This document shows, piece after piece, positions 853 through 63,736 of a DNA stretch of 64,000 nt. A program made the position numbers and the translations under genes. The notes under the pieces were generated by a model that was not told the DNA's origin, ran no database searches, and saw only the letters and a list, made by a program, of their open reading frames with translations. Numbering within the stretch: position 1 is the stretch's first letter; each line of letters opens with the position of its first letter. This stretch comes from Tribonema minus. Taxonomy: Eukaryota; Sar; Xanthophyceae; Tribonematales; Tribonemataceae. The stretch is from contig JAFCMP010000268.1 of NCBI GenBank assembly GCA_017506865.1, positions 186,001-250,000 of the forward strand, read 5' to 3'.

Positions 853-893
853 CTTACCCAGCATGATGTGGAAGCCGATAAGCTGTATCATCA
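853..893 (-). repeat. Degenerate copy of a zDHHC exon 3' end with its splice donor
   Basis: This stretch repeats the last part of exon 978-1072, including the GTAAGC donor (GGCTTCCACATCATGCTGG then GTAAGC). About 27 bases are missing from its middle relative to the exon. It lies downstream in the following intron. It could be a decoy or alternative exon end, or simply a relic of tandem duplication. Confidence 0.7.
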
Positions 894-977
894 CCGCTAG
901 TAACGTAAGATAAACATTGTGTTACGTGCTTTGTTTGCAGTGTACTGATTTTCACTGAGACTGAGACCTGGGCTTAC

Positions 978-7171: not shown

Positions 7172-10078
7172 CTACCCTACGCGCGCCACGTACGAGCTCG
7201 ACAGTGTCACGTAGCGCACCCATCGGTACGGGTTATACGCCTTGCCGGCGTCCGCAATCTTCAAGTACCGCACTTGAAGTCCGCTCACGCTGTACATGGG
7301 AACTTCAAATGACGCGCTAATGGGCCCGAGCTCCCTGCGTGTGGTCGCAGTGCACGGCTGCGTGAGAGTCACCCGCACACGCAGCGACTGCTCCGTGCCC
7401 CCCTGAAACCGCTTTATCGTCCAGTCAACGCGTTTGGCGGTGGCGTTGTACTCTGCTGATTGGCCGGGGAGTGCGCGCGGGTCGATTTCGGCGCTGACGG
7501 TGCCTGCGGCGCGAGGCACTGGGACGCTGACCACGACGTTGCTGCCGTACTGCGGGGGGGGGGTGGCAGGGGAAGGGGAAAGTGTGCTGTGAGAGAAGTA
7601 TTGGAACTTGAAGTTGATGCATGCATGAAGTAGGAGCAGGGGGGGGGTCGTCAAACAACGGGTTGACTGTTGGGACAACTACTCTAGCACACACCTCAAA
7701 ATTTCATCAATGTCACTTCTTGAAGCAATGCTAAGGGCAGCACTCACCACATCTTGCATGTCTACAGTCACATGTACATACGCACGCAAACACCTATGCG
7801 CGCGCATGTTCATGCATGCAAATTCAAGTATTTTGGAGTCAAAACGGGGTAGGTGCTGCTGGTATGCATGCATGTATGCATGCCCGCACCTGCGCCTCCG
7901 GCATGTCGGCGCGGACCAGCAGCAGAAGTTCAAGATGCAGAGCGTCCGTCTCCGTGACGGACGGAAACATGCGGAACGGCGCGCGGAACTCCGCCGTGAT
8001 CCTATAGTTCAATGCGACGAACTCCCCGTCCGGGGGTACCAGCGTGAGCTGGCGCCCACTTTCGAAGTCGTCCAATCGGACGCACTCGTGGAAGTTGCAG
8101 TCGTCGAGGACGACGGCGCCGTAAGTTGAAGTTTGGCCCCTGCCGATGACGAGGTCCTCGTTGAGTGCCAACTTCAACTCCGGGTTCCCACTGAGGTACG
8201 ACTTCATCTGTATGCAGCCGTCGATGCTGGAGTTGAGGATCTGGCCGTTGGCGCCAAACAGCACGTTGAGACGCTCCAGTATGTCCACAAAGATCTCGTT
8301 GCGCTGCTTCGCGCCGCCGGTGCTGCCGGTGATGGGCTTGTGCGCCGCGGAGGAGGGGTTGGTTTTGGCGCCGAGGGTGGATGGTATTCGCAGCGACTTG
8401 GACGGCTCCACCGCTATGGGCTCGTTGTACACGTAGCTCTTGAGGCTCTCCGTACCGGTGGTCTGTAAACGCGGCAGGCACACCAGCAGAGTTGAAGTGC
8501 GCAAGAAGTTAAAAACATCCTGGCCGCTATGGGCTCGTTGTACACGCAGGTCTTGAGGCTCGCGGTACCGGTGGTCTGGACACGCGGCAAGCACCAACAC
8601 AGTCTGATTGGTATGCATAAGAATAAAAAGATCTCGTTGTTTGCCAGCGTCAAGCGCTTGTTGAAAACGCAAGAAGCTCTTAAGGCTCTAAGCATCAATC
8701 AGTCTCCATGTCCTGTGCCTTGTCGCAAGCTACGACTTACTGCAGGTGAAGTACACTGAAACTTCAAGTAGCACTGCGCTGCGAACCGCACTTAATTCGG
8801 CAGCTCACCCAAGGGCGCGCATTCAAGAAGCACAACATCAATCCCCTTAGACCTCTTTAGTGCCCTCATCCTCTTGAAAGCAAAGAAAAACAGAGCCCCG
8901 GGGCACACTGACCTGAGGGTATCCATAGTCCAGCATTTCATCCAGCAGCTCGTAAATAAGTATGAAGTTTTTCCGTATTGCCTCCTCAGTCAGCGTCCCG
9001 CAGTAGTCCTTGAACACCTTGGCCAGCCTGTGCAGCAGCTCGATCACCTGCACAGGCGAAGGGGCACAATCAGACACGCAACGCTCATCACATGCACTGT
9101 ACAGGCAGCGTGGGGCACAAGCAGCGGGGCAAGCACCGCGATCGCGTTGCAATGGCGATCCTTCACAGCACTTGTCTCTATCTCCCTGAGATGAAGATTT
9201 TGAGCAATCCCTTGCATAAGCAGCTTGTGTCACAAGCGCAGACCACAAGCACTGCACGGGCAGCATGTGGCACAATGCAGAGGAGCAAGCACTGCGGCTG
9301 CAGCGCAATGGCAGTGGCGGGCGGCACTTTTCTATCAGCCGAAGGTACATTTTGACCTCCTATACTTCTTGAAATAGTACAGTTCAACAACGTGCGTGAC
9401 CCACTTGCACAGGCAACAGGTCAAAGCAGCAACTGGTCCAGTCCAGCAACTGAGACTTCCGCATGATAATTGTGCGACCCTGTACATGTACTATAGTATG
9501 CTTTTGCAATGTTTGCCATCCGGTGGCAGGAATTCCAGATGAGCAGGCACGGCCGCCAACTATGCTCTGAAAAAGTGCACGTTTGGTACGGTAGTGTTGC
9601 TTACCTGACTGGGGGAGCAATTCCATCGGGTCGTCACTCCAAATAGCAGCCCATTTTTCCGCACAAAGAGGTAGTTCACGCCATCTATGTTCATGCATGG
9701 CGGGGGGTCACCGCCTTCAGTGAATTTGACCTGCAGCAGCATGAGCACCAACATCCGCCATTGATAGATAAAGACATGAAAATCACGGATTTGCAATCGT
9801 GTCACCACAGCTGTATAGCGCCATGTTCATGTGGGTGGAACAGCATTGTGCCAATGACCCTGTCAACAACAAAAGGCGAGGTGGGACCTCGTGGGACATT
9901 CGTTCATTTGCCACAAGCTTGCAAAATGGTCAGCGTAACGTGGCATCAGAAGATCCCTCACCTTCCTGAAAAAGATGTCCGTTCCTCCGGGCACCACATC
10001 TCCTCTGTAGTCCTTGCTGATTATGGTGTCGCCACGAGGACTGAGTATGAAGAAATGAGAGATCGGGGCTATGCTCAT
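7172..10078 (-). CDS. AP4M1: AP-4 complex subunit mu (adaptor medium chain)
   Basis: Cargo-binding medium subunit of the AP-4 adaptor complex, which sorts cargo at the trans-Golgi network. Five exons on the minus strand, all introns phase 0: 9962-10078, 9605-9730, 8913-9047, 7890-8462 and 7172-7549. They give 442 residues, close to the plant protein as I recall it (about 450). Residues 1-39 (MSIAPISHFFILSPRGDTII) begin the longin-type N-terminal domain, and IYELLDEMLDYGY follows in exon 3. The mu homology domain begins around residue 170 with RNEIFVDILERLNVLF, then IQMKSYLSGNPELKLALNED, DDCNFHECVRLDDF and LVPPDGEF. The C-terminus has GLQVRYLKI and YNPYRWVRYVT before ARVG and a TAG stop. These last motifs fit AP-4 mu better than the mu1, mu2 or mu3 chains. 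The start ATG at 10078 is 262 bases from the divergent plus-strand gene. Confidence 0.95.
8524..8600 (-). repeat. Degenerate copy of the AP-4 mu exon 4 acceptor edge
   Basis: This stretch resembles 8403-8480, the start of exon 4 with its acceptor. Shared elements are GCTATGGGCTCGTTGTACAC and, about 20 bases on, GGTACCGGTGGTCTG, as seen on the plus strand. The copy lies upstream of the exon, in the preceding intron, and preserves several codons of VYNEPIA. Confidence 0.8.
9046..9312. repeat. Repeated acceptor-region sequence in AP-4 mu intron 2
   Basis: About 60 bases recur at 9097-9150 and 9251-9312 with the pattern ACTGYACRGGCAGC, GGCACAA, GCAAGCAC and GCAATGGC. A shorter match (CTGCACAGGCGAAGGGGCAC) abuts the exon 3 acceptor at 9048. 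Confidence 0.55.
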
Positions 10079-36857: not shown

Positions 36858-36890
<33 letters not shown>

Positions 36891-42358: not shown

Positions 42359-42755
42359 ATGAAATGACCAAAGGTCAGTTTGGCTGTTCATATGTTAACA
42401 TTCATCACTCATAACTTAAGTTGAAAGTACAGAATCATGTATAGTGTGGTAGCAAGCTTGACGTCCACCGTTTGGGCTCTTTTGCGCCTCAGCGAGGATT
42501 ATCAAAAAGCACTGGGACGTATCGTTATGATCTTGAGTGCGCTTAAGGCCCCCAAGCTGAGGGTCGGGGGGCGCATGTTAGAGAAGAAGTGGATGAACAA
42601 GGTCAATTGGGCTGGTTGTTGGCTTCAGAAAAGGAGTGATTGAGCAAGGCAGATTTGGTTGTTGTAGGCGCTGGTAAGGAAGTGAATGAGCAAGGTCGCG
42701 CTTGTTCGCACAGACACCACAAAGTAAGTGGACAAGCAAGGTCAATTCTGCTGCA
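42344..42755 (+). repeat. Degenerate copies of the surface protein 2 terminus and 3' flank
   Basis: The sequence around the stop codon (AAGTGAATGA, then AAGGTCAGTTTGGCTG) recurs in varied form near 42587, 42632, 42680 and 42722 as AAGTGGATGAACAAGGTCA and similar. The copy at about 42533-42570 also repeats the codons for SALKAPKLRV. Confidence 0.78.
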
Positions 42756-45379: not shown

Positions 45380-48300
45380 ATCGCGCGCGCCCCCCTGAGC
45401 CTGACGGAGGCGGGAGGGACATGAGCTGTCACGTATGGTGACGTCTATGCAACAAGCTACTTCAAAGCCGCCGCGCAGTTTAGTGCACCGGCCTGCCGCT
45501 ACCGCGTCAGCGCTCGGCTGCACTTTAGGGACTGGAAGGCAGATCTGGTTGCTGCCGAAGACGATGTCCATGAACTTGTTGAACCCGTGGCGCGCCGCGT
45601 AGCGGCGGAAGGGGGCAAGGGTGTCCCGGTCGAGACCGCGGAGGTGGGCCACCTGCTTGAGCAGCTGAAAAAGCGCGTCTGCGAGCGAGTTGTGTTGCGT
45701 GACGTTGAGCCCTTGTGTGCAGCGGCGCAGGTGGGCACCTGACTCCACTGTTTTATGACACTTAGGGCACCGCGCCGCAGCGGAGGCGGGGCGCTCCACG
45801 CCCAGGTGGCGCCGCAGCGTCTCGCGGAATTCCGGCGGCGACATGGTCTCCGCTGGGTCAGTGCTCGGCAGTTGTGCCAAGAAACCCATGGCCCCCTTAG
45901 AGGCACCGCTGCGCCACGCTGCGACTGCTTCCAACGCATTTGCTGCTTCAAGCCGGCGCAGCTGCGTGGCGGCGAGCGCTGCGTCTAGCACCCGTGATAG
46001 CGCGGCTTGACGCCGCGGCAGCACGGCGGCCGGCGGGGCCTGGGCGGAGCCTGGCTCGCGCGCCGCCGCTGGCGCAGCGCGGCGCGCGCCGGCGCGAGTC
46101 CGCATGCCCAGCCCCGCAGCTCCGCCTGCCCGTTGCAGCAGATCGCGCAGTGCTCGCCACGCGCCGTCGTCCTGGCGCCAGTCCTGGTACCAGACCGAGG
46201 GCAGGAGCAGTGCGAGGGCCGCTGCAGCATCATCGCTGCCGCTGCGCAGCTGCTGCAGGCAGGTAGCTATCTGAGTGAAGGTGAAGCCGTAGCGGGCGTG
46301 CTCTAGGACGCGGCTGCGTGCCGCCACTGGAAACGCCGCCAGTGCCGGTCCCATGCACTCGAGGGTACGCGCAGCAAATGCGGCACATGCACGCGGCGCC
46401 GCGCCCAGCACGCCAAAGCCGCCGCTCCCCAGCCGCAGATGCACGCGTACCTGCTGATGTGCTAGTAGCGTCACCGGGGCCTCGCCACCCCAGTCGGCGC
46501 CGCGTACCCATGCCACTGCCGCCGCCCACAGAGAGGGCGGTGCCGCCGCCGCCGCAACCGCCGGCGGGCTGCGGCAATTGCCACCAGCCGCCGGCGCGCC
46601 CTCGTGGGCCGGCGGCGTAAGGCCCGCCGATGGCTCCTGCGCCAGCGCAGCCACGGCCGCCAGCGTGATGGCGTCGAAGCGCCGTAGCTCCTCGTGCGTG
46701 AGGGATGGCGCCGTGTTGCGCGCGACATGCCCTGCGCGGGCGGGGACAGCAAGACGCAGAATCGAGAAGGCAGCCTGCACATCCTCCATCTGCACCAGCT
46801 CCGCCACCAGGCGGCCGGTGCCGGGGGCACGAAGGGTCGCCGCTACGTGTGTGCGCACGAAGTCCTCGGTGCCCACCGGCACCCCCATCAGCGTGACGCC
46901 GTCGTCACATACTGGTACGGGGACATCGGCGGCGGCGAAGACGGCGGCGGCGCGCGCGCGAGCGCCGCCTGAGGCCGGCACCAGCGCTGCGCATTTCGTG
47001 ACGTTGACCTGAATGTTCAGCTCGCTCAGCGCCTGTTGTATAAAGCGGAAAGCGCGGCCAACGTGGCCGAGCACTGGCGCGTCACAGCTGGGCGTCATGA
47101 TGGTGAGGTCATCGAGGTAGCCCGGAAGCGCCAGCTGCGGGAACTTGGCGCGGGCAGCCACCATGGTGCCGCGCAGTGCCAGCGCGAACAGCAGCGGCCC
47201 CAATGGGTCGCCCTGCTGCACGCCCTGTTGGGAGAGGATGATGGCGGCGTCGGCGTGCCCATCTAGGCCAAATTGTAGCCAAGGGGCCCGCCCGGGGCCG
47301 TAGATGTGCTCGACGTAGCCGTACAGGCCAGGCAGATGCTCGGCCACCGCAGTGAGGACTGCCGAGCGCGACAGCGCGTTGAAGGCATTACTGCCGTCAA
47401 TGGCAAGGAGCACGCCGCCGCACTCATGCGTGAGCTGCGCCATGAGCGCCACCCTCTCCGCGCCCCCCCGCGCGCCGATCCCAAACTGGCCAATGGGTTC
47501 TAGCAGCGCGGAGACACGGTCTCGGGTGTCCGTGCAGAAGGTGCGGGCGAACAGGCGGCGGATGGTGTCGCCGCACGCGATGGGGCGCGCCTTCTCACCC
47601 ACAGCGCTGAGGCGCGCGGCTGCGTGGAGGCGCCAAAAGGGGGCGGGCAGCGTGGCGGGGGTGGAGTACGCCGTGATACCCAGCCACGCCAGTAGCTCAA
47701 GGAGCCAGTCAACCATGCGCCCCGACGTGTGCGCCGTGTGCCGGACGCACTGCTGGAGGTGGGAGTTGCGCAGCCCAAAGGGACCGGCGGCCGAGCCAGG
47801 GTTGGCGGCGAGGATGGCCTCACGTAGCCCGTCCGCTGTGAACGAAGCGCAGTTGAGTGGTGCCGGCGCCGCCAGCGCCGCCGCCGCCACTGAGCTGCGC
47901 GCCCGCGATGCCGCGGCATCCAGCTTCGCACACGCATCGCCAGCTGGGTGTTTAGCCTGCAGTTTATGCAAGGTAGCGGAGTCGCGGGGGGCAGATGTGT
48001 CAGCACCCTCCGCCAGCAGCCGCGCGGCGCGCCTGACGCCGCCCGGCTGCCGCGCCGTCGCCGCCGCGCGCTCGCGGACTGCCGCCGCCGCCTCCGTCAT
48101 GGACCTAGCGCGACGCGCGCACGCACGGGCGGCGCCACGGCGGCAGAAGGCCAGCGCTGTGCGCGTGAGTAGCTCCAGCTCGCCTGCCGCGAAGGCCGTG
48201 AAACGGTGCGCCCGCGGCAAGGAGCCGTCGGGCACTAGCAGCAGGCACGGCAGCAGATGCAGCAGCTTGCACCATGCACCCGCTGTAGCGGACGCCTGCG

Positions 48301-49186
48301 CCGCTGCCTCGGCACCGTGCGCCTGCGCTACCGCCGTTTGCGCCTCCCGGAGGCCCGCCAGCGTGGCCGTCAAAGCGGCCGTGAAGTCTGAGCGGTGCTC
48401 CAGGCGAATGCGGCGGCCAACCACCAGTTGCTGCTGCAGTACGTAGTCAAAGGAGAGTTCGTCCAGCGCTGCGCGCGCGGGCGAGAGCGGCGCGAGCGTC
48501 CAGAGCGGAAGCGCGCTGCGCCACGTTGGCCCTGCAGCAGCCACCGCGGCAGCTGCGCGGGCGCCGGGGCCGCGCGTGCCGCCACTGGCTGTAGGGAGGG
48601 GGAGAATGGGGGGCAGAGGCGCGACGCCGCGAGGCAAGCGCGGCCGCTGCGTTGTGCTCGCGGGCCGGGATTTGTCGAGGTGCTTGCGCAGGTGCAACTT
48701 CGTGAGCACGCACCCGGGCTCGCCGCACGAGACGCATGCGCAGAGTACCAGCTCAGGTTCCACGGCGCGGTAGGTGCCCTCGCCAGCGCGATGGAGGGTC
48801 AGACACTCGGCGTCAATCACCTGCATACGCGTGAGGAAATCGGCAGGCATATCCGGATGCTCGCGGCGCTGGTGATCCGCCAGCGCCGTGGCGACCAGCG
48901 CCGTGGCGATGCGGCGCGCCAGCGCCGGCGACGCTGATGTCTGCGCGGTGAGCGTGTGCGCCTCCCTGTTCCTGCGGAGGCGCGTTTTGGGCACTGGCAC
49001 CCGAAAGAGGCAGCCAGTGTCATGTAAAGGGCAGCGCGGATAAATGGCAGCCGTTGCAGGCTGAGCGGGCGCCTGCACTGCCTCGGGCTGCGCCGGATCT
49101 GTGCCCGCCGCGGCAGCCGCTGCTGCAGCAGCAGCTGCCGCAAGGGCCGCTGGTGCGGCTCCCCCTGAAGTAGAGTCGAACATCAT
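45254..49186 (-). CDS. Retrotransposon ORF2: reverse transcriptase and endonuclease polyprotein
   Basis: A 1310-residue protein that would copy element RNA into DNA at the target site. Cys/His motifs near the N-terminus include CVSCGEPGC with HLRKH (C-x2-C-x10-H-x3-H). Reverse transcriptase motifs follow: AIDGSNAFNALS near residue 594, GVQQGDPLGPLLF near 657 and the catalytic YLDD near 688. A second Cys/His cluster (CPKC then HLRRC) lies near residue 1140, followed by a region with FEVACCIDVTI, consistent with the C-terminal restriction-like endonuclease of R2/CRE-type elements. The reading frame ends at a TGA where the duplicated copy to the left has CGA, so this copy is probably cut short by one substitution. 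The start ATG follows the ORF1 stop by 33 bases. Confidence 0.9.
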   Translation of the reverse strand: MMFDSTSGGAAPAALAAAAAAAAAAAAGTDPAQPEAVQAPAQPATAAIYPRCPLHDTGCLFRVPVPKTRLRRNREAHTLTAQTSASPALARRIATALVATALADHQRREHPDMPADFLTRMQVIDAECLTLHRAGEGTYRAVEPELVLCACVSCGEPGCVLTKLHLRKHLDKSRPASTTQRPRLPRGVAPLPPILPLPTASGGTRGPGARAAAAVAAAGPTWRSALPLWTLAPLSPARAALDELSFDYVLQQQLVVGRRIRLEHRSDFTAALTATLAGLREAQTAVAQAHGAEAAAQASATAGAWCKLLHLLPCLLLVPDGSLPRAHRFTAFAAGELELLTRTALAFCRRGAARACARRARSMTEAAAAVRERAAATARQPGGVRRAARLLAEGADTSAPRDSATLHKLQAKHPAGDACAKLDAAASRARSSVAAAALAAPAPLNCASFTADGLREAILAANPGSAAGPFGLRNSHLQQCVRHTAHTSGRMVDWLLELLAWLGITAYSTPATLPAPFWRLHAAARLSAVGEKARPIACGDTIRRLFARTFCTDTRDRVSALLEPIGQFGIGARGGAERVALMAQLTHECGGVLLAIDGSNAFNALSRSAVLTAVAEHLPGLYGYVEHIYGPGRAPWLQFGLDGHADAAIILSQQGVQQGDPLGPLLFALALRGTMVAARAKFPQLALPGYLDDLTIMTPSCDAPVLGHVGRAFRFIQQALSELNIQVNVTKCAALVPASGGARARAAAVFAAADVPVPVCDDGVTLMGVPVGTEDFVRTHVAATLRAPGTGRLVAELVQMEDVQAAFSILRLAVPARAGHVARNTAPSLTHEELRRFDAITLAAVAALAQEPSAGLTPPAHEGAPAAGGNCRSPPAVAAAAAPPSLWAAAVAWVRGADWGGEAPVTLLAHQQVRVHLRLGSGGFGVLGAAPRACAAFAARTLECMGPALAAFPVAARSRVLEHARYGFTFTQIATCLQQLRSGSDDAAAALALLLPSVWYQDWRQDDGAWRALRDLLQRAGGAAGLGMRTRAGARRAAPAAAREPGSAQAPPAAVLPRRQAALSRVLDAALAATQLRRLEAANALEAVAAWRSGASKGAMGFLAQLPSTDPAETMSPPEFRETLRRHLGVERPASAAARCPKCHKTVESGAHLRRCTQGLNVTQHNSLADALFQLLKQVAHLRGLDRDTLAPFRRYAARHGFNKFMDIVFGSNQICLPVPKVQPSADAVAAGRCTKLRGGFEVACCIDVTIRDSSCPSRLRQAQGGARDVQRVLESASQEKIDTYVVSGALDPTTHTLFSAAFDHFGAMS

Positions 49187-49219
49187 TACGATGAATGAGG
49201 GGAGCGCCGCACCGGCGGC

Positions 49220-50692
49220 TTACAGGCCCGAGGCGCCGCCGCCTCCCTCCGGTGGCGGCGGCGGCGCCGTCAAGGTGGAGAGGAAGCGGTCGGCGGCGGA
49301 CTGACCCTGAGGCAGCCCGCGCGCAGGGCGTGCAGCGGGGGGTTCCGCCGCCGAGCTCGGCGTGCGCTCAGCAGCCGTGCGCTTGCGGCTGGGGCGGGGT
49401 GTGCCACTGTCGGACATAAGCGCGCTGCTGTCACTGGCAGGCATGGGGGGCTGCCCGCTGCGCGAGGGGGAGGCGCTGCAGCCGCTGCCGTGCCGAGCCG
49501 CTGGCGACGATGCGCGCCGACACCGCGAGCGCCCGCGTGAGCAGGAGCGCGGCGGCTGCCGCGGCGCCGCCGCTGCCTCCGGTGCCACCGCGGGGTCTGC
49601 TGCCGCACGTGCGGCCGCTGCCGCTGCCGCGCCGGCAGCACCTACAGCAGGCGGCGGCGCGCCCGCCGCCTCCGCCGCGGCGGCGCCCGCCGCCGCCGCG
49701 CCCGCCGCCTCCGCCGCGGCGGCGCCCGCCGCCGCCGCGCCTGCCGCCTCCGCGCCCGCCGCCGCCGTTGCCCCGTCCGCCGCCACCGCCGCCGCCGCGC
49801 CAGCCGCTTCAGAGCTAGCCTCAAGGTCTCCCGCTACGGGCATGGTGGCCACCGCGCCGGCGGCGTCCGCCGCCGGCACCGCCACGCGCGCAGCGCGCGC
49901 CGCTTCCGCTGTCAGCTGCGCCTCGAGTCGAGCGGTCGCCGCAGCGTTGCGCACCTGCTCTCCTTCGCGCAGGCTCCGTTGAAGCGCCGCCAGCCGTTCC
50001 GCACGAACTTGCTCTGCCAGAGACCGGTCACGATCGGCCTCAGCAGCCCGCTTTCCCGCCGCGGCGGCTGCCAGCAGTTTTGTCAGTGCCTTGACCTGCT
50101 GCTGCAGCCCCTTCCGCGCGGTCCTCCCCTCCATGATGGTCCCCTGCAGCTGCTGAATGCGCTGCTCCTGGCCCAGCTGCGCAGGGTCCGCGTCGGCCGC
50201 CGCCGGCGGCGGCGAGGCGCCCGGCGACGCGCTCGCCCGCGCGGGTGTCGAGGCGGCGGCAGCGTCCGTCGCGGCGGCGCCGGTCGCCGCCGGCGCTGAA
50301 GGCTGCGAGGCGGCGGCGCCGGTGGGCGCACGCTGTGTCGTGGCGGCTGCCGCCGCGGCTGGAGCCGCGGCTACCGCAGGGTCACCGGCAGCTGTGCCAG
50401 TGGCGACAGCTGGCGTGGTGCAGATGGCGGGGAGCGTGGTGTGTGCGCAACGCGCTGCCCGGCACTGCTGACCTGGGCGCGTGAAGTGCCGTCGCAGGCA
50501 GGACGGGCACGCCGTCAGATTATCTGGGCCCAGCAGCCGCAGCGCTACTTCCGTGCCGTCCACCGTGCATAGGACCGAGTGCGCGAGTTGCCGCGCCACG
50601 CCGCGGGCCACTGTGAGCTCCCAAACACCAGCGGCGCCTGGCGACGCCGCCGACGCCGGCGCCGCGGATGAGGCCGCACCGCCAATGCCCAC
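49220..50692 (-). CDS. Retrotransposon ORF1: zinc-finger, coiled-coil protein
   Basis: About 490 residues, Ala-rich. A Cys/His cluster near residues 57-82 (CPSCLRRHFT then CRAARCAH) would bind nucleic acid. A Glu/Arg/Ala-rich stretch around residues 190-270 with RKGLQQQVKALTKLL and heptad spacing predicts a coiled coil, as in chaperone-type ORF1 proteins of LINE elements. The frame stays open upstream to about 50780 without any ATG, so translation either starts at a non-AUG codon, the 5' end is truncated, or the start has mutated. The next ATG in frame is well inside, at MEGRTARK. Confidence 0.75.
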   Translation of the reverse strand: MGIGGAASSAAPASAASPGAAGVWELTVARGVARQLAHSVLCTVDGTEVALRLLGPDNLTACPSCLRRHFTRPGQQCRAARCAHTTLPAICTTPAVATGTAAGDPAVAAAPAAAAAATTQRAPTGAAASQPSAPAATGAAATDAAAASTPARASASPGASPPPAAADADPAQLGQEQRIQQLQGTIMEGRTARKGLQQQVKALTKLLAAAAAGKRAAEADRDRSLAEQVRAERLAALQRSLREGEQVRNAAATARLEAQLTAEAARAARVAVPAADAAGAVATMPVAGDLEASSEAAGAAAAVAADGATAAAGAEAAGAAAAGAAAAEAAGAAAAGAAAAEAAGAPPPAVGAAGAAAAAAARAAADPAVAPEAAAAPRQPPRSCSRGRSRCRRASSPAARHGSGCSASPSRSGQPPMPASDSSALMSDSGTPRPSRKRTAAERTPSSAAEPPAARPARGLPQGQSAADRFLSTLTAPPPPPEGGGGASGL

Positions 50693-50827
50693 GCCGCAGG
50701 TCTTCAGAGCGCTGGCCAGCAGCAGAAAGGCGGCGGAAGTACCGCCGCCGCCTTGAAGTTGAAGAACGCGGTTGTAGGCGGGTCATGTGCTGCAGAAACG
50801 GAGTTTACCTTGCACACGCACGCGCAC

Positions 50828-52533
50828 ATGCCATCATCCGTCAAGGCACACATGGCAGCGAACATGCGCAAGATGCTCGGCAAGACCGGCTTGTGCAACC
50901 GCTACAACACGGTCATCACTGGTGAGTATTTGACGGACAGAGGCTTTCTCATCAGAAGCGGATGTGCAGGCTACGCTTGCAAAGAGATTGGAGCGCTGCG
51001 TTACGCAGGTGGCGACTGCAAGTCTAATGCTACCAGCGAAGCAGATTTGAATTGTTGCTGCATCGGGTGCCTGGCGGAAGCGTACCATACCAGGAGGTTT
51101 CCGTGGACAGAGTCCATACAGTGTTTTCGGTGTCTGATCACGGTAGAGCCGCTCGTAGCCCATAGTGCGCTAAGCAGAGGGTGAGCATGCAGGAATAGTG
51201 TCGAGCAGCATTCTACGCTAAAGGACACGATGAGCACGCTTTTGCGACATAGTGACACACAATTTGTGTCACACAAAGTAACAGCAGTGAGGCATGATAA
51301 ATGTCAGCAGTTACAGAATCGGTTCATTCATATGCAGCATTGTGGAGTATGGAAGGAAACACAGAAAATTTGGTATCATTACCATGAAAACTCACCTAAC
51401 TTCATCTCTCATGAATGCACGCGTCGCTGATTGTTCAAAAATCTGCCTGTTTCTGCAGTCAACGGGATTCGAGTGACCAGCTTCAGCGTCGTGAGCAATC
51501 TCTACGCAGAGCACACGACACCGGACCATGTCGCCAAGCGCTCCCAGCTACTGGTGCACCTGGAGGATGAAACCGCCCCCCCCAAACACCAGGGGGGCCA
51601 CCGCCGTGAGCTCAGTCGCCATTCCAAACGCATCGGCCAGGCGCTGCTTTTCGATTTGAGTGACCCTGCTATTGGAGAGTGGACGCTTGAGCCCGATGGC
51701 AAGAGTGCAGTGTGGCGGCCCCGGGACGAGAGGTCGCCGTTGAAGCTCTGTCTGCCACCCAGGTACTTCAAGTGTTTGGAGTCGCGCTTTGAACCTCACG
51801 GCATGGCCGTCATTGCGCATCTGTAGTGTTGCACTGCTGCAGTGCAGAGTAGCAAACTTGATTGCATGCAGTGGGTACTGGAGCCTGATGACAGAAGCAC
51901 AACCCCAGGATGAAAGTTCGCCGTTGTTTGCGACCAGAGTATTTAAGTTCGCCGTTGCTTGCGACCAGAGTATTTTGGATGTGCGTTGTGTCGTGCCGTG
52001 TGTCTGTATGTTGTGCAAGTCGTGTTTCTCTGTGTACACACGGGAGTACCCGGCCTCCATTGGGGCCTTCATAAACACAACTCAAGAAGTAGTAATGTGT
52101 CTTGTGTATGCCTGTATCATAGCTAATTCACATAATGCAGTTGCACGCCGGCAGAACCATGACACAAAACCTTCATTGGAGGTACTCTTTCAGTCTCGCC
52201 ATCCCCATATTCAGGAACGACAACCATGTCCCATGTACCCCGTTGCCACATGTCAATCTTCCCCCCAAAACAACTCACGTCATTTCCGGGATGATTTCCC
52301 TGCGCTCCCGTTGCAGGTGCGGCGATGAATCCAAGCGGTGGGCGAGTCTGCACTTTCAGGTTATGCACACGCGGCTACAACAGCCAGAGGCCAGAACCTG
52401 CACAGCGTGCCCGCTGCCGACTGGAGCTGGCGAGGAAGTGGAAAGGGAGGATGACATCACAGGAGATGACATAAGGTATATGACAGAAGGTGGCTGGCAG
52501 TTGGATCGTGCTTCAACGGACTTGCAAAACTAG
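50828..52533 (+). CDS. Unrecognised three-exon gene
   Basis: Exons 50828-50921, 51459-51762 and 52317-52533 join in phases 1 and 2 and encode 204 residues. The start is the first in-frame ATG (MPSSVKAHMAANMRKMLG); the retroelement ORF1 frame begins only some 70 bases upstream on the other strand, so the promoter may lie in or next to the element. Exon 2 contains VNGIRVTSFSVVSNLYAEH, QLLVHLED and EWTLEPDGKSAVWRP. Exon 3 begins CGDESKRWASLHFQ and has an acidic tail. No signal peptide or membrane span is seen. I do not recognise the family. An alternative donor at 52474 (ATAAG-GTATAT) would make exon 3 internal and the gene longer. Confidence 0.6.
51870..51976 (+). repeat. Degenerate copy of an exon 2 end plus a 32-bp tandem duplication
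   Basis: At 51870-51912, GGAGCCTGATGACAGAAGCA and CAGGATGAAAGTTCGCCGTT echo the end of exon 2 (GAGCCCGATGGCAAGAG and GGGACGAGAGGTCGCCGTT) downstream of its donor. A 32-base unit containing AAGTTCGCCGTTG and TTGCGACCAGAGTATTT then occurs twice in tandem (about 51912-51976). Confidence 0.7.
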
Positions 52534-52824
52534 ACCGCATCCTGCGTAGGTCGTAAACTTGAAAGTCACATTGAACATCCTGCCTGCCTCGGGGACTTGA
52601 CTTGAAAAATACGAGTTCTTGAGTATTCACCAAAGTGATAGCGGTCCTTGTGGGCGGTGCATGCATGTTGAGTGCTTTTGTTGCAAAGTAATCAAGTTTC
52701 CAGACGTGCTTAGTCACACACAGAACTGCCATGGACGTATTTCTTTATGAGGCTTACAAGTGCGCTATACTTCAACACATCACCTTACATGCCTACCCGA
52801 GAACCTCCCAAGACTCAATTTGGA

Positions 52825-53187
52825 TTTGTCACCAACTTGTTCTACGGTCAACAGCATGGCGGATCAGGCTCTTGGCAGTGTCTCCTTCTCATTTTTCTCG
52901 CGGTGCCTTTTGTAACCCTAACCCTAACCCTAACCCTAACCCTAAGCCGCCCAGATCGCCATCCCAATTGTAGTAGGCTCTCCATGCAGCACATCCGGCT
53001 TCTGATCAGTGTGCGTCGACTATAATGACTGGCTAAGGCGCTAATCAATCGCTGGTGTATCACCCTGGCCAGGTAAGTGAAATCTGAGCGCCAAGTATGA
53101 AAGGCACCGCGAAAAAAAATGAGAGGGTGACACTGCCAAGAGCCTGATCCGCCATGCCGTTGATCGTAGAAAAAGATGGTGACAAGT
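52825..53187. repeat. Inverted repeat surrounding a telomere-type array
   Basis: The left arm (about 52825-52911) and the reverse complement of the right arm (about 53099-53187) share GGCGGATCAGGCTCTTGGCA and CGCGGTGCCTTT, with scattered differences. The spacer begins with about five CCCTAA units (52913-52944). No open frame or terminal TSD was recognised. Confidence 0.88.
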
Positions 53188-55278
53188 CCACATGCACCGT
53201 AGGGGTACTTCAAGTTGAAGTTCACCAAGGTTGGATCTGGACTTCCATGCTTGCGTCATGCAGGGGCATCGCAACTTGAAGTTGCTGATACCCAGTAGGG
53301 TCGTTGAGAAGTCAACTGCACTACAATTTGTGACGTACTGAACGCAGTCCTATGTCTTGATGCTTCATTGACATCCACAACAGTGGTCGACCAAGTACAT
53401 ACCTAGCAGGCAACACAGTTCCATCAGCTCTAGCTGAGATCATCGCACCGCCTACCTGTCCAAGCAATGCCACCTTGAAACACATGGCGCAAATACGATC
53501 AGTTCGCTCATCAGCACGATTTACTTGCATTTCGTGTGCCCTCCTCAGGGTCCAAATACGATACACCCTGAGGCGCGTTCACGAGTCTCGTGCACCTTGC
53601 GCCTAGGCCATCTGCTACACATCACCAACGTGGCGCTGCGCACGGTGATTCTGGGCAGTTGCCACTAGCAGCTGCAAAGCCCTGTCATGGTGGGGGCTTT
53701 GCTGGTAGTCTGGAATGCGTTTGAATTGGCATACATAGGTCACTCATACAATGGGGTGCTGCGATAGCACACATAGCGCACTAAGCTCGTGCACTCCTTG
53801 TACATACGTGGACAGCGCAAAAATGTGCTACATGAGGCATGAGTGACACGTGCTTTGCACGTGTGCCAATAGCGGATGGTGTAGGCGTCAGGTCCATGAG
53901 TGTACTGTAGCAGTGCAGTGTTGAAAAACAGTGACAGACAGAGTTGCTTCCAGTCGTCAATGCTCTGTAGATAGAGGGTACCATACATACATACCCTCAG
54001 GCTGCCAGGGCCTCCCTGCTCTGCCATCGTGCTGTGGCACTGTTTTTGTTGGTGCCTCAGGATCACACCGCCTCTCAGCATGATGCTTCAAGCGGTGACG
54101 TGCTAGTCAGCGTAGCTTTGAAACAGAACAAGCGGGCCACCACACTCATACATATCCTGTGTGCTTAGCTCTAAGATAGATAGGCTGGTTAACAGCCTGA
54201 AATTGCATCTGGGCAATAAGACGACACCAAGGCGCAACCCTGTGCACGCTCGTCTTGCTGATGCTTCCGTGCTGCATCTGATGTTGGCTGATGTTCAGGT
54301 GGCCATGACAGCAATTTATTGCGAGCAATTACATTGACATGCTCTACGTAATTCATCTTTGATGTAATTGGCCTGTCTCGTCAAGGAGCAAAGCGGTCGC
54401 ACCCCATTGTCAAGTTTCTGTCAATGCCATTGCAATGTCTTCTTGACCGCTTCGCACACATTGGAAATACGACCTAGCGGCACATGAATCAGTGCATTGC
54501 ATTGTGACATGTCAATGAAACGTGCATATTCCTTCGGGCGCAGCTCATGTTAACATACAGAAATGCAAGCAGTAAAAAGCATCAAATATGTACCGGTATG
54601 GACACGCACTTTTTTTTTTATGCATTTGACTACGAATGCTTGTGTCATGTTGACAATTCATGGTCCACATGGCGGCAGTTGTCGGTTGCCGGCCACTGAG
54701 AACATGTGCGCATGGTGGCAGATGCCGATGATCAACACACACTATGACGAGAGCAACGCAACCATGCATGCTATGAGGCAGACATGAAACTGCCCTGACA
54801 GCTCGAAGACCAAGAAACGGTCTTCACCATTCCTCAAAGCAGGCTGTGTAACAACACTACACTACACTGCCAGAAAAACCTTGAAACTAGGCGGCACGAC
54901 ACCACTGCGCACTTTTCAGCAGGGCCGAAAGAGGGGCGACGCTGCCCCTGCAACCTAAGTCACGATGGCCAAATGTGCCACAGTGGGGTATGCATAGGCG
55001 CTGCCTGGCTTGCAATTTGTGTATGCGAGTACGCTGCGAATGATCCACGCGTATGTACATCAAGCTCTTCAGCTGGTTGACAGCTTTTGCCCTGGAGGCA
55101 CGGAAAGTGGGGGGCTGCAAAGCGTCCATGTGTGTGTGTGTGCTGTTGTGGTAGGTAACTACGCAGTTCGCCCTCTGGGCTGGTTGCTGTTCACAAGCTG
55201 CAACTTTGAGAGTCGAGCTCCACATGCCGCTTTTCATCAGTCTTGTGATGCCCTGATGATTTTGGGTGCAACATTACT
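53188..55278. other. Intergenic region left of the carotenoid oxygenase
   Basis: No gene recognised. Minus-strand frames around 53321-53566 have splice-like edges but no family motif. Confidence 0.45.
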
Positions 55279-58200
55279 TTAAGCATGCTGGCTCTTGATC
55301 TCCTGCTCCGTCACATGGAGGGCATGGAACCCCAGAGGCTGAGAGATTGCAGAGAACAGAAAATTATGGCATTGTGTGATGCGAGTGTAGTGGGTGGGCA
55401 ATGGCAGACTGATGCAGTGCCGCAGTTTCTGTATTTGTTTGCCCATGTACACTTCTCTGAGGGGAATGGGTGTATGTTCCTGATATAGCACTCCAAGCTG
55501 GTGCACAACATTATGGTCTTCAAGTTGCAGTTCAAGCATCGCTTTCTTCGCGCATGGTCACGTGGCTGCAAATTAGAGTTAAAGAAGCGCCCCAAGTGCT
55601 GACATGCGACAATGTGTGCTGCAGAACAGAAGTGTTCATGTGACCAGCCACTATGTCAGATCATGATTTGCATGCGCTGTGGCCATTTGCAGTGTTAAAT
55701 TGCGTGTTTGATGTGTGCATTAATGCTGTCAACTCGAAGGACGTTGGTACTGCGTGTTCACGTAATGGCAATTTGCGCTCCTGGAAGGCGCATTTCCCAC
55801 ACAAACAAGGTGCAGTGCTGCAGGTCAACATGTGCACTACGTTAGCAAAAAATTCAAGTTGCATCACCATTCGTGACCGTGTCTTAGTGCACACTAAGTC
55901 AGCAGTTTTGTCAAAGCTGACTCACAACGCGAGTCGGTATCTTGATGGTAGCCACGGGCGTGGCGTTCATGGTCTTGGCGTTGTAGATATGCATCTCGGA
56001 TGCGTTGTCGGAGTTGGTGTCCACCACAAACACCAGCAGGTAGCCGTCGTCCTCTGCCAGAGCAGTGCTGCATGGTTAAGCAGCAATGTGTACTCGCGTT
56101 GATCACTCTAGATGGGAATGCTGACACACAATATCAGTCATTGGCATATTGGCCTTAGGTTTGTCAGTGTTGCAATTTAGGGGGGTACTTGAAGATGTGC
56201 TAGCGGTGCATCTACTATGTAGTGGCACAAGACGTTACATGCCACGCTTGCCAGTTGATTGTTGACTTGCATGGTTGTCAGTGTTGCAATCCAGGGGGGT
56301 ACTTGAAGATGTGCTAGCGGTGCATCTACTATGTAGTGGCACAAGACGTTACATGCCACGCTTGCCAGTTGATTGTTGACTTGCATGGAGCAAACATTGC
56401 AATTGCATGAACCAGCAGAGCACGTGCACCCGGCCCGAACTGCTTGCGCTGAATGTAGAGTCTGGACTTTGCTTCTGCCTGCAAGGACAGTAAACACTGC
56501 AGATACTGGGCTGTGTTGCGAAGCCCAAGCTCCTAGGGCGAAGTGCAGACCAGGCTGCTGCATGCGAGTAAATCCTAGGAGTCCTATGCTTGGCCTCCCT
56601 CGATACCTTCATTTAAATACACTTCCAAGTCCATACTCACAGTAAACACTATTAGTTTAACGCAGAGCAGCACATATCTATACATGTGCATGTGTGCGGA
56701 ACTAGAAACCTCACCCGCTGACGCTGGTTCTTGGCACGAAGATGGCTTCACCACCATACATACCCTCGCCAAACATGACACTGCCAAGGTTGGCAGACTC
56801 AGGCGAGGTAGCCTCCAGGTCCTGTAACAATCAGGGGTCAGGGCTCAGGAATGAGTGTGGAGACAGTTGCAAAGGAGAGGTTCTGCGAAGTTCAACATAA
56901 TAGCGTCTCAGGCAGGGCTGGCTGAAAAGGGCAGATGTGGCTCTGCGTTTGCCAACTTGAGCAGTTATGGTACGATGTGGACTGCAGCTTATGCTGGTCT
57001 GCCAATCGCATGCAGCTAGACCATTGTGGCAATGCGGTCATGATGGTACATGCCATCAGTGCCGCCCATGTGGCAATGAAATAAATCTGGTCGGGCATTG
57101 TGTCATTTCCTGATAAGCTTCATCTGAGAGCGGGCGTGATACTGAGCCTTGCGGCGTTTGTGCCTTAAACAAGCATCAATGCGTGCTTGTGCATATATTG
57201 ATTGATTGCATGCCCTCCTCCTTACATGACTTGAAAACACGGTGCATCCCAGGGGTGGGGCCGTTCAGGTCTGCAGTGGTTGGGGTCAGCGGTGGGGCTG
57301 GATTGGGGTATGAGGACTGACTTCGGGTTGGAGTTGGTGTGGGAATTTGTCACACAAACTTTATGATACTTCGAAGTATGATTTAATTCAAGGCCTCCCG
57401 GCAAAGTACGTCATCTGTGCACATGGCGTGGTGGATGTGAAGGTCATTATGCTTTCTTTGTTTATGGTGAGAATTAGGGTATTGGCCAGGTTAGGGTGAG
57501 AGTCGGCCTTGCAAGGACTTTGCGTGCATTCCTTCAGCTGCATGTACTCTCTTACTTCCTATATGTGTTGGGCTCAGGGTTCCCTCTGTCTAGCTACCCA
57601 ATGGATAGAAACCACTCCAGAATGTTGTCATGACCTGTGTCATTTATTACAACACTCCAGAACATACTGAGAAGCAATGCATTGCATTAAGGCTGGTTTC
57701 ACATTACCATCTTGATCAGCCCAACAGGCATGAGGGTCTTGGGCTCAAACTGCGCCCAGTAGCTGTAGCGACAGGGGCGTCCCATCAAGTCCTTGTTCCT
57801 GCACATTTGCGAGGTTTGCGACAAAGCACATTCAACACACCAACCAAGCCTGGTAGTTCCAACGTCACGCCACTGTTTGGGGGGTACAGCACATTCAGTG
57901 CAGTAACCAAGCCTGGCAATATGAGCATCAGGCCGCTTTTGTAACATACATGCATACATACAAGCAGCACAGCTCATGGTCCAGACCAGGGGAAGGTCAG
58001 GGGATATTGAGGTGTGTAGCAAGACAAGGTGTTGGAAAACTTCAAGCTTGAGCACCTGCGCCCCCAGTGAGGCAAAAGTTGTGCAAGGGTTAGGAGTAGA
58101 ATCAGCGGTATAGGCCACGGAGTAGGATTGGGGCCAGGCCTGCTGAGCTAAGTGCCTTCAGTGCTGCGCAACTTGAGCATCTTCATGATGAGATCCAGAC

Positions 58201-61200
58201 TGATAAAACATGCTTTTTAAGTACATCGGCTTGCGGGGCACAAACTGTCCGAACTATGCAAGATATGCAGCTCTTGTGCTTGGGCAACGCCACCCCCTGC
58301 CTCTACCCCTAGCCCTAACCATAAGTGCTCACAGCGCGTGTGTAAGCTCAGCTGCAAGCAAGCGCTACCTACGCTCAGCCAGGCCAGCTACGCAAATGGG
58401 CGTCCAGAAGGGCTGTACACTAAACACAGTGCACGTGCATCGATCTGTCTCGAGCTCAGATGAGACAATGACATGAAAACTTGAAACTTGCTGGAAGTGT
58501 TACTTGCACAAATGCAGCATTCGTTCAGCCTGCGTTGCACCCGTACGACACCAACGTATAAACAAACAAAAAAAGATGCATCTGCTCAGACTTCCCTATA
58601 GTACACCACACGATTTGTAAATGCGCTAGTGCCTTGCGCTTGCAGTCCTCAAGATCACCTGCGCTATACAATAATGTGGCTTGCTATACAGTACTTGCAT
58701 GTAAGCTGCTGCCATTCAACTAGAGTAATGAACATTAAACCTCATCTGCACATTGCTCCAGAAACCTCAACATAGGTTGGCACTTACAGTTGAGGGAAGT
58801 CGACCGACGTGTCGAGCTCGGCAACCACCGCGCACTTGTTCACCGTCTTTGCGGCCAAGTCAAGGGTATAGCGCATGGCGCGGCCCTTCTGCGAGCCACT
58901 GTCGTCGCCAATGAGAGTCTGTGAGCAGCAACACAAATGAAACACTCCCATGAGGAGATAGTATTGAAATTGAAATTGAAGTGAACCACTGTCCTTGCGA
59001 CAAGCACCCGTGAGCTGCAAGGGGGAAAGAAACCTGTTATGAATGAGTTGAAATGAAAGTTTGCCATCCCAGTATTTTGCTGTCAATGGCGCTTGACTTG
59101 ATGTCTGGTGACAACTACTCGCACACCGAGAAACATGGGGATGCCAGGACTGCACCTGAGTACACATGAGTACTGACCTGATCCCATCATACACACACAA
59201 AGGGTGACAATGCAGGGGTGCAATGCCAATGTCGAAGCTATTTAGGCGTGTTGAATGAGTTTTTGGGCACACAGAATTTGCATTTTGACGCCAAACAGCG
59301 GCTTGAGGCCAAGGGCCTCAAAACCTGCCACAAGGAGAAACCATCAGTGAATTCAGCCCTCACACTTGCTAGAGTGTGGAGCTAGTCAATGCTTCAACAA
59401 TCATCTTGTGTCGATCTTGCTGTGCAGTGCCCTACATTTTTGGCAATTGCCTGGCGTGTCTGGTCTGCTTTGGCAGATCAAAGCGTCGTTTGCGACCACG
59501 CTGAGAACTAATGCATGATCACGATGAGATCTGATGCAGTGCCATGCTTAGTCACAGCCGATAGAAAACACGAGCATACAGCACGAGTCACAGTCACGAG
59601 TCAGAGTGAAAAAAAAAGTGAGTCAGAGTAGACCGCGCCCATTCGAGCGTCAACAAGATCTGCTCACCGAAGAATTTCAATTTGAACAAACATCATTGAG
59701 CGGCGCACATCTCGCACCCACAGTAAACCTGATTCAGATGGTGCCTACTTGAGTACATCATTGAGGTGCTGATTTCTTACTACTCTGCTTATTGAAGCGT
59801 GTTGTAACTTCAAGGAACCACACAGGCCCGCCACTCACCTGCAGGCTGAGGTTGGTGTACTCGCTGATGACAAGTTCAACTTGGGCGACGCTCCCCTCGC
59901 CTTTGCCGTCGGGGACTTCCCACGCGTTGAGCGTGTGGAAGCACGCCACGGTCTCTGGCAGCGTGAACCACAGCATCTCGCTGACGTGGCAGGCAACACC
60001 GCACGGCGGTCATCAACATCAATGCATTTCAGACATGTGTGTGATAGTCAATGTTTCGATGAACGATGTGCACAGTGAAAAATCAGGGCCTGCACAAATC
60101 TTCGCCCGGCGGTCCTGTGAGCAACAACAGTTCAACTTGAAGTTCATGTGGTGTGCGTAAGCGTGCACGACAATAAATTAAACATGTGCCTGTGCCATGG
60201 CCTCGCCTATTTCCTGCAGGCTGATGATTCAACACGCTGACAACGTACAGCATGCAATCAGATGCGTAGGTACAACATGAAAAGCATTAGATTTGTGCCC
60301 CTCCAATTGAGCGTGCAAGTCGGTTGTGAGCTGGAAGTTCAAGTCACAGTAAAGTCGAAAGGGGCTAGGCCGGCTAGATCGGGGCTTACCTGTCATCGGT
60401 GGCATCGAGACGCAGCAGGCCCAGCCTGGCAGGGAGAGTCTGTCACAATGAAGAGCATACAGCAGGAGGCAACAGCATGAAGATGGTGGTTAAAAGTTGA
60501 TCATGTCCAGATAGACATTATCTTGATGAAGGCCTAGAGAGAGGCATGCTGTTAGTTGTGTACAGATTCCGGAGTAGGTTGATTCCAAAGCAGTTTGCAA
60601 CGCCAACAACCAGATGATGACAACCTCCGTGCCGTTATTTAAAAGCAACAGAAATGATCAGCAAGCCCTCGATCAACCTCAGATCTGAGCATACCTTTGC
60701 AAGTGTTCACAGATGTAAGCTTCTGGGATACCATTTGGCGTGTGCATGGAGCCATCAATGCACTTAAAAGTATCATGTGATAATGTTGGCATTGCGCTTG
60801 AACATGTGCTCGCAGCGCTGTTCAGAGGAAACTCTGTGCCAGGTGACACAATTAAATTCTTAGATACACCGATCAGCAGCTTAACTTCAATTAATGAGAG
60901 CATGTCTGGCAAAAACAATTGCCAATCGAGTCATGCAATTGATTGTGCTTGAGGACTGCTGGCAGAGACACTAGGTTCAAGCTGAAGTTGTGATGTGTAG
61001 GCTGCTGAAGAAGGTGCAAGCATGCTGCCAGCACATATGCGCTAGCAATCGTCTCATGGCGCCAGTGAAAGGGATTTGCGCAGCTTCAAGTGCGTTGTAT
61101 CACCATCAACTTTTTTGTTGGCTCGCCACATCGCCATATCGCCATATGGAAGCACGCTGCTGGCATTAAACTTACATAGAAACACATTCAGCCTGCTAGT

Positions 61201-63736
61201 GCCTAGTGTCAAGGCGATCACCACTGCCACGAGCAACAACGAGGCACCAACATTTTCATTCAGCCAACATTTTTATTCAGACCTTGGCGGGTTTACATGT
61301 ACCTATTTCGACTGGTGTGGGTAGGGCCATCAGAACTTGAAGTTGAAGCAGCAGCCCACTTGTCGAGCTGCAAGGGTACGAATTGCAACTAGTATAGGTA
61401 TCAAAGTCAGGAGTTGAAGTTAAAGCAGCTCACCTTGTCAAGGCAGAAGGGCAGCTCCCCCTTAGACATGACGCTCCCGTCAAACTTGAAGGGAAAGTCC
61501 ATGAACACAGCGTAGCTGCACAAACACAATGAAAACCAGAATGTGCTTGTTAGGCCAGGCAAATACACGGGGGCAAGAATCAAATCCATGCCAACAGATG
61601 TAGGATAGAACTTTCACACTACACCAGTTTTGGGGCGTGAAGTACAATCGCAAACATCAGAAATTCTGGCGTTCTTCTCTTGTTCGTGCCAATCGACTTG
61701 GTGAACTGCGGTTCTGTTAAAGGCCACAATAGGATACCCGACTGCGCCGGGGGCGCACTGCGCAAGTAGTGGGGGCATACCATTCCATCATGCTTGAAAG
61801 CATTATCAAAACATGACACACCACGCTGATTTGATTCTTATGTACTTGCGCACCATGGCAGCTCTTGTACAAACGTTCATATGAGGGGGGCATGCTGAAT
61901 GACTCTGAGCCTGTGCGCCAATAATACACATGTATGTTGTGGAATGATATTACACGAATATCACAAATGCAATGCAGGCCATAGAGAGGGCTGCCACACT
62001 GTGGGGTATGGCATATCATCAAGTCTTGCAACGTCGGTTTCGAGCGCAGTTTGGCGCTGAGATGACCTGCAGCCAGCCCATGACAAAAAGTCCATGAAAC
62101 ACTGTCATGAGCTGGTCTACGAGTACACCAACTAGCATATGTTGGTGCTCCAATGACAACAAGTTGATGAAGCTGTCATGTACGAGTACATGTCAAGTAC
62201 ACAATCAGTGCACAACGTGACTACAGGCTGCACACTGTACATCCAGCCGCAGACTAGGCTGCTGCGTTGACGCAAGCTTTTCGATTGCATAGGCAACCCG
62301 GCCTCCCTTGGGCCTTTATAAATACAAGTCCATACGTACATCCAGCCTCTCTCAAAAGCCTGTGTAACTGCCAGTCCATGGGTACTGTGCCTTACCTCTT
62401 GGTGATTGCAAAGTCGTGCATCATGATGGGCTCCTTGATGCCAGTGATGGCCACGGATCTCAGCAGCTTGCCCTCAGGGTTGATCACGTGGAAGGTGACG
62501 CGTGGCAGAGCGTTCACCTGCAGCAGTGCTCACAGATTCGATTCATGTTATTGCCGTTTATTGCTGTCGCATTTTCATTCAATGAGATTGACATTTTCAT
62601 GCATGGATTTGAAGCCACGGTGGGGCTGACTGCGTCACAGTGGAAGGCGACTAGAGAGTGGAGACATTGCCATCAATTCGCAACAGCGCTCAAAGATTGC
62701 ATAGCAGCCAATCAGTTTTTCATTCATGCTTCGAGGTCTACATTCATAAATGTGAAGCAGCCGGTTGCTCCTCGAGGCTGACTGCATGGAAGGTGACACG
62801 AAGCATGGCATTCAACTTCGCAGCTTCCATGCATGAGTACCAAAACAGCTGTGTGGAAGGTGACGCATGGCGTTCGCCTGCAACAGTGCTCAGATAGTGC
62901 TGAAAGGGCAATTTAGCACCTCAGTCATGTATGTGTGGTATTGCTTTACAAGTTAACACGGATGTCAGCACTCAGCGTTCCATTCATGAATGCATGTTGA
63001 AGTGTCTGGAGTTCGGCAATGCTCATTGGGGCAAGCAGGTAAAATTCTTGTTGGCTGAGAAATCCATGCAAATGTGCTGAACGCAAAGCACCAGTTGTGT
63101 TGTTGTACAGTCCCCACCTGATAGCCGAAGGCATACATGATGCTGGTAGCGGGGTCGACCTTGGGGTGCGCGGTAAAGGGGGTCTTCAGCTTGCCATCAT
63201 ATGTCACACTCCCTGCAGCAGTGCAAAGACGGCAGATTGTGGTGGAGTGGAGGACATAGTCAGAGGCCTTGTCAAGGGGGTCTAGTGGTGACACAGAGGC
63301 AATGGATCAGTTGCGTATTGCGGAGCAGCACTGGCACATGCATATGGAGACGGAAGTACACGAGATGCCATTTGGCGGCGGCGGCGTTTGAGTAATTGTC
63401 GTTGCGACACTTTCAGACTGTCATATGACATGTAGATTCCTTACTGCTACATGCCAATCATCTGGGCTTTTTCGCGCCCTGAGCGAGAATGAATAAAAAG
63501 TACATGGATAGTGATCCGAAGCATCTGAAAGTGCCACCTGCTGGTCAAGGGTAAATGTAGATATAAGGTTACTCACCGATTGTCTCAATGACTCCATCGC
63601 ATAGCACCTGTGCAACAGCACCACGCACATCAGGAGCAAAGCAAAGCAGATGAGGTCAGCAGCGCCCAGATTTACAGGCACACTCTGCAACATAACATAC
63701 CGCTGTGTAGGTCAGTGTTCCACGCACAAGTGAGCT
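55279..63736 (-). CDS. Carotenoid cleavage oxygenase (RPE65/CCD family), N-terminus missing
   Basis: Iron-dependent dioxygenase that splits carotenoid polyene chains into apocarotenoids. Minus-strand exons: 63701-63736, 63577-63607, 63118-63212, 62396-62517, 61434-61515, 60390-60439, 59839-59980, 58788-58918, 57708-57798, 56715-56821, 55926-56067 and 55279-55338. All phases agree and give 362 residues with a stop. The four iron-ligand histidines are present: FTAHPKVDP, MMHDFAITK, CFHTLNAWE and, in the last exon, PLGFHALH. Other family motifs are GRPCRYSYWA, GGEAIFVPR and EDDGYLLVFV. The family usually has 450-600 residues, so 100 or more N-terminal residues lie in exons to the right, partly beyond the window; the first listed exon is the least certain. 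Sequence alone does not separate the bond specificity (9,10; 11,12; 15,15'). Confidence 0.93.
56161..56388. repeat. 114-bp tandem duplication in a carotenoid oxygenase intron
   Basis: Copies 56161-56274 and 56275-56388 begin TTGTCAGTGTTGCAAT and differ at about two bases, so the duplication is recent. Confidence 0.95.
57828..57920. repeat. Short duplicated segment upstream of a carotenoid oxygenase exon
   Basis: AGCACATTCA followed by AACCAAGCCTGGYA occurs at about 57829-57858 and 57890-57918, just outside the acceptor of exon 57708-57798. Confidence 0.75.
58895..59025 (-). repeat. Degenerate copy of a carotenoid oxygenase acceptor edge
   Basis: GAGCCACTGTCGTCGC, then GTGAGCAGCAA at the start of exon 58788-58918, resembles GAACCACTGTCCTTGC, then GTGAGCTGCAA near 58983-59022 in the upstream intron. 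Confidence 0.5.
62485..62900 (-). repeat. Several copies of a carotenoid oxygenase exon start and acceptor
   Basis: The start of exon 62396-62517 with its acceptor (plus-strand GTGGAAGGTGACGCGTGGCA, then CGTTCACCTGCAGCAGTGCT) recurs near 62628-62700, 62790-62830 and 62853-62895, the last as GTGGAAGGTGACGCATGGCG and TTCGCCTGCAACAGTGCTCA. All copies lie upstream of the exon, in its preceding intron. Confidence 0.8.

Follow-up and report, generated by a model that had tools for sequence, protein, structure and literature searches.

Are exon edges in this genome repeatedly copied into the DNA beside them and, if so, does such copying need a mechanism of its own? The question comes from a sequence-only reading of the window, a stretch of 64,000 nucleotides (bases 186001–250000 of contig C268) in a genome of 158 Mb and 554 contigs. 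That reading listed 13 duplicates of exon edges, stop-codon regions and a retroelement end, and considered a special mechanism behind them. We analysed a sample of 304 kb, composed of the window, the 40 kb downstream of it and an unrelated 200-kb block of contig C112.

The genome contains 92 matches to light-harvesting proteins (PF00504), and the host is a photosynthetic eukaryote. For one protein, comparison with solved structures gave matches to chains labelled ACPI, CAC, FCPI and similar, which we take to belong to red-lineage algae. Two fragments resembling the RuBisCO large subunit (L037; C112:516888–517037), each with a stop, are situated in large contigs and are possibly plastid-derived nuclear DNA. 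We counted 126 occurrences of the heptamer ACTTCAA/TTGAAGT in 104 kb and 99 in 200 kb; uniform random sequence would give 13 and 24. Host introns start with GT, usually followed by G or A, have a G five bases in and mostly end in TGCAG. Exon maps of the extended regions were made with a small purpose-written gene finder, which is crude and merges adjacent genes. Tested on 78 hand-set edges, its first settings recover 44 and its later settings 60; results for both are reported below.

For 12 of the 13 items on that list, the alignment was compared, under a strict and a loose scoring, with 300 alignments to a shuffled copy region; the 13th, the retroelement 3′ end, was aligned separately, outside the shuffle test. 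Ten of the 12 pairs exceed all 300 shuffles in both scorings, which rules out chance similarity for these ten. The copying of exon edges and stop codons is thus real for most of the listed cases and, as shown below, recurs outside the window, but two items are weak: 9097–9312, paired with edge 9047 (p 0.083 strict, 0/300 shuffles loose), and 58983–59022 (p 0.077 and 0.013 in the two scorings). Four of the ten solid pairs have eight or fewer exon bases or end before the splice site, so that the set comprises six good duplicates of an edge or stop codon, three with at most eight exon bases and one copy of an exon interior.

A solid donor-edge copy belongs to a zDHHC-like gene on the minus strand, whose exon 978–1072 has splice sites set by eye and a DHHC domain match nearby (2218–2382). 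Segment 852–888 matches 972–1008 at 35 of 37 positions (31 exon and six intron bases), lies 120 bp downstream of it and keeps the GT. Two acceptor edges on the same strand are copied upstream into their introns, with the AG kept in both. For the exon of an AP-complex mu gene at 7890–8462 (PF00928), 8524–8594 matches 8411–8481 at 64 of 71 positions (52 exon and 19 intron bases; 113 bp upstream). In a carotenoid oxygenase gene, 62853–62892 matches 62488–62532 around edge 62517 at 37 of 40 aligned columns plus a gap, 360 bp upstream. The exon edges of the last two genes are secure, since their exons, once joined, form open frames that match PF00928 (1.7e-69) and PF03055 (8.1e-55), respectively. 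Both stop-codon copies, on the plus strand, are confirmed. A 51-bp unit is present 2.2 times at 33574–33685 across stop codon 33580–33582, with a copy at 33625–33651 (26/27), and 42532–42614 repeats the end of a last exon with its stop codon (42298–42386; 69/82 aligned).

Further copies lie in the gene called surface protein 1 (plus strand). A tandem array of approximately 100-bp units at 22762–23526, also a solid duplicate of its edge, ends across acceptor 23509/23510, an edge set by eye, and its best copy matches at 52 of 60 positions with 17 exon bases. The three copies described as donor duplicates are real similarities, but contain at most eight exon bases each. The first, 24151–24174, has five and starts a 17-bp tandem array (24151–24225) grown from just inside donor 24103. 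The second, 27166–27187 (21/22, eight exon bases), sits in a 52-bp array among intronic repeats at 26216–27194 that resemble donor 26183. The third, 32406–32440, is an essentially intronic copy of the intron start beside donor 32335, beginning 6 bp inside the intron, and reaches into the exon, by four bases, only with the looser scoring. Likewise, the similarity at 51870–51912 in another gene is real, but what is matched is the interior of an exon: segment 51861–51926 resembles 51671–51742, and since the match ends 20 bp before donor 51762, it does not demonstrate that a splice site was carried along. Donor copies do lie downstream and acceptor copies upstream, as had been pointed out; this layout holds no clue to mechanism, since it follows from calling the copy intronic, the other side of the edge being exon.

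The retroelement 3′ end is doubled as described, with 44510–44937 and 44936–45379 (minus strand) 92.65% identical over 449 columns. The element (44510–50700) contains a reverse transcriptase frame (PF00078), and 40 or more further long matches share 94–99% identity with it, so the family is apparently recent. Among eight copies examined (L001–L008), the 0.4-kb tandem doubling is found only in this one (L001); in L002 that end has a partial repeat of 55–72 bp, and in L006 a second match is set apart from the first.

Duplications away from edges served as controls, such as an 81-bp tandem duplication that is all noncoding (35586–35749, plus strand) and a 114-bp one that is all intronic (56161–56388, minus strand). 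The clearest local inverted duplication of the window is the pair 52818–52910 and 53100–53193, with 89% identity over 94 columns at a distance of 190 bp.

Edge-spanning duplications recur in conserved genes of the next 40 kb and of the unrelated C112 block. In the latter, copies straddle splice sites at 118476, 124013, 128717, 153514, 163404, 165537, 183157 and 188953, and the copy at 118476 is identical at 47 of 47 positions. Genes of this block match Helicase_C_2 (2.5e-42), Pkinase (5.2e-56), GSH_synth_ATP (3.8e-43), DENN (6.4e-18) and zf-CHY (1.5e-16), and two further segments match uDENN (4.5e-4) and Hemerythrin (5.5e-4) below the curated cut-off. A stretch beyond the window's downstream end, at 73,328–88,924 on the window's numbering (C268 coordinates are 186,000 higher), stands out most: we labelled 16 events there by hand, of which 12 span an edge and several are present in three copies. 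One exon there matches ABC_membrane with 28.3 bits, barely above the cut-off, and other parts presumably read like an ABCC transporter. Telomere-like interstitial stretches of the TTAGGG type are present at 19 sites in 104 kb of C268 (e.g., 38334–38359, 52913–52945 and 29443–29480) and at six sites in 200 kb of C112; judged by eye, one abuts a duplication junction near 80130 (window scale).

Exon edges are therefore repeatedly duplicated locally, and the copies are duplications at the DNA level, since intron sequence is carried along with exon sequence. In all 23 pairs that we aligned across an edge, exon and adjoining intron belong to the duplicated segment, and both copies are on the same strand. 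The two parts diverge asymmetrically. Exon columns are identical at 905 of 997 positions (90.8%, divergence 9.2%) and intron columns at 850 of 1,023 (83.1%, by printed rates; divergence 16.9%), and the resulting ratio of 0.54 fits a situation in which selection maintains a single exon copy per pair and acts on no other part. The perfect copy at 118476 is included in this divergence set, but is missing from the event lists, where it gave no pair after filtering.

By sequence, many of the copies would still pass for splice sites, as had been proposed: 18 of 23 keep their GT or AG (pair 77851, scored with a misplaced boundary, was dropped from this count), and in a purpose-made splice model nine of the 23 equal or exceed the score of the true site. 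Such copies could be retained as alternative splice sites, but we consider this very improbable. The fraction expected from intron identity squared is 0.69, so the 18 of 23 are near neutral. Moreover, the distance between copy and site is a multiple of three in only four of 24 cases (eight expected), so that most uses would shift the frame, and frame-preserving alternative splicing finds no support.

Repeated copies with intact splice signals in introns are also what a mobile intron-like element (introner) spreading between genes would leave behind. The copied sequences, however, differ from gene to gene. Two copy-bearing regions, those of the AP-mu and the ABC-transporter-like gene, each occur at a single place in 158 Mb with no dispersed match (very common words were skipped in this search), and a dispersed element is thereby rejected for the regions searched. 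An introner is accordingly an extremely remote prospect. The same search with five inter-copy spacers found no other place in the genome, save one local inverted partner; these spacers are not dispersed, and a mobile spacer inserted between target-site repeats was rejected.

Some pairs are adjacent, with 149 bp copied at an offset of 146 (79984), 75 bp at 73 (128705) and 75 bp at 76 (165523). Others are spaced: at 852 the offset is 120 for a segment of 37 bp, at 8411 it is 113 for 71 bp, and at 123984 it is 257 for 56 bp. Approximately half of the pairs are not strictly adjacent and have an unlike spacer between the copies (e.g., 852–1008), which counts against simple tandem duplication unless deletion or insertion followed. 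The many pairs with such spacers (852/972, 8411/8524, 123984/124241), which are not dispersed repeats, would suit copies made as patches from nearby DNA during break repair (templated insertion). In that case exon interiors should be copied as freely as exon ends, yet only 13 of 2,598 interior windows on the window contig and two of 2,622 in the C112 block have a copy in the flanks (15/5,220 in total; first annotation). Inverted copies would be expected too, but are fewer, with about eight loci with separate arms (counted by eye in a list unfiltered for low complexity) compared with 48 direct events at the same score. Templated insertion is thus an unlikely source. The rarity of exon-interior copies instead fits duplication next door, followed by selection that clears exons.

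To what extent are edges enriched? We scored 60-bp windows for a local copy at a strict score of at least 50. On the window contig, the first annotation gives copies for four of 65 edges compared with 84 of 3,951 noncoding windows placed at random; in the C112 block, the figures are seven of 358 and 22 of 3,984. The second annotation gives 11 of 159 compared with 109 of 3,939, and five of 545 compared with 16 of 3,971. A matched control used windows inside the same introns, 100–300 bp from the edge. At an example cut-off, 16 of 704 splice edges and 26 of 2,777 intron-interior windows have a local copy (bootstrap 95% interval of the ratio 1.2–4.3). Over five cut-offs the ratio is 2.0–2.4, with bootstrap 95% intervals spanning 1.04–4.34; in a block bootstrap, the probability of a ratio of 1 or less is 0.0005–0.02 and that of 1.2 or less 0.0045–0.07. 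The excess peaks at the splice edge and drops off within about 60 bp both ways. The comparison of edge windows with intronic ones, which the sequence-only reading had put forward, hence came out positive.

The enrichment is weaker when events rather than windows are counted (low-complexity pairs excluded throughout). The share that spans an edge was 0.50–0.53 in one count compared with 0.35–0.39 for a rotated exon map (p 0.015–0.083), and 0.53–0.60 compared with 0.42–0.46 with the second annotation (p 0.068–0.162). The plain number of edge events exceeds rotation with p <1/400 to 0.010 in the former count and 0.028–0.082 with the second annotation. Among 44 events labelled by eye, 26 span an edge and 18 do not, so comparable duplications in noncoding DNA are frequent as well; not included in this tally are the stop-codon pair 42298 and three arrays confined to exons (27684, 95378 and 153722). 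In summary, edges are enriched roughly two-fold, an excess of no more than moderate certainty.

The edge copies are probably best accounted for by ordinary short local duplication combined with survivorship. Short direct duplications of about 30–200 bp arise at many places in the genome. Those within exons would mostly be cleared by selection, and those in noncoding DNA would be tolerated and then fade. A duplication across an exon edge would be tolerated as long as the outermost splice site remains in use, since the redundant exon end, with its splice site, is then part of the intron. Selection would hold the used copy, and the spare would drift as a decaying look-alike splice site. Such a pair should remain recognisable for longer than an intronic one, because only one of its copies is unconstrained instead of two, and survivorship of edge pairs could produce an apparent edge excess without any mechanism aimed at splice sites. 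Here we infer the order of events, that the spare evolves neutrally and that the whole excess stems from survivorship.

How large an excess would survivorship produce? In simulations with substitution alone, edge windows are 1.19- to 1.23-fold easier to detect; by argument rather than computation, deletion of copies as well can push the advantage towards two-fold. Survivorship alone thus predicts a 1.2- to 2-fold excess, and a mechanism that seeks out splice sites is not required. The edge share is lowest among the youngest events, with four of nine at 90% identity or more, nine of 15 at 80–90% and 13 of 20 below; this is the direction that survivorship predicts, although the trend is not significant (p 0.118). 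Two further observations count against the survivorship account: the measured excess of 2.0–2.4 is larger than the 1.2 from substitution alone, and in one gene-sized stretch downstream of the window as many as 12 of the 16 hand-labelled events are edge-spanning.

Splice junctions might instead be true hot spots of duplication, for example if exon ends were prone to R-loops or to breaks linked to transcription. The sharp peak of the excess over same-intron windows and the raised edge share of events (0.50–0.60 compared with 0.35–0.46 when rotated, p 0.015–0.16) are what hot spots would produce, but survivorship predicts an excess of similar order, the four of nine youngest events at edges are near the rotated expectation, and copied segments begin and end at many distances from the splice site. 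Taken together, these points make hot spots rather improbable. The same low likelihood applies to the idea that introns grow from their ends by recopying their own exon edges at such junctions and leave behind graded series of fossil splice sites, for which the ABC-transporter-like gene downstream would be an example. For an excess of about two-fold, and with a divergence pattern that points to survivorship, the special copying mechanism considered at the outset is not needed.

The edge copies form a dense natural series of duplicated splice junctions of different ages in one genome. This may be useful for studying how introns grow and how the spliceosome separates a true site from a near-identical neighbour some 70–360 bp away. 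It is also a warning to gene annotators that both copies may be called exons, as our gene finder at times did. Edge hot spots, if true, would tie transcription or splicing to local genome instability, but the present data do not require them.

In a literature search that covered few subscription papers, genome-wide surveys of exon edges copied locally did not turn up. Precedents are described in PMC4974935 and PMC3443670. In the potato RdRp gene, such a duplication crosses an intron–exon boundary, a new intron resulted, and relatives date the event (PMC4974935). As in our pairs, the duplicated segment runs from the last part of an intron into the exon that follows, and the splice site is doubled; here, however, the copy lies within an intron, no intron gain is demonstrated, and a single genome contains numerous cases of varied age. 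A survey cited in PMC4974935 and PMC9860276 is described there as likewise dealing with small intragenic duplications that carry splice signals. The tandem-duplication class of intron gain, as outlined in PMC3443670, also doubles splice-like sequence, but in that model an exonic segment is duplicated and the new intron lies between the copies, whereas here existing junctions are copied into existing introns. Introners (PMC9860276) likewise multiply splice sites within one genome; they are dispersed mobile elements, whereas the edge copies described here are local and gene-specific.
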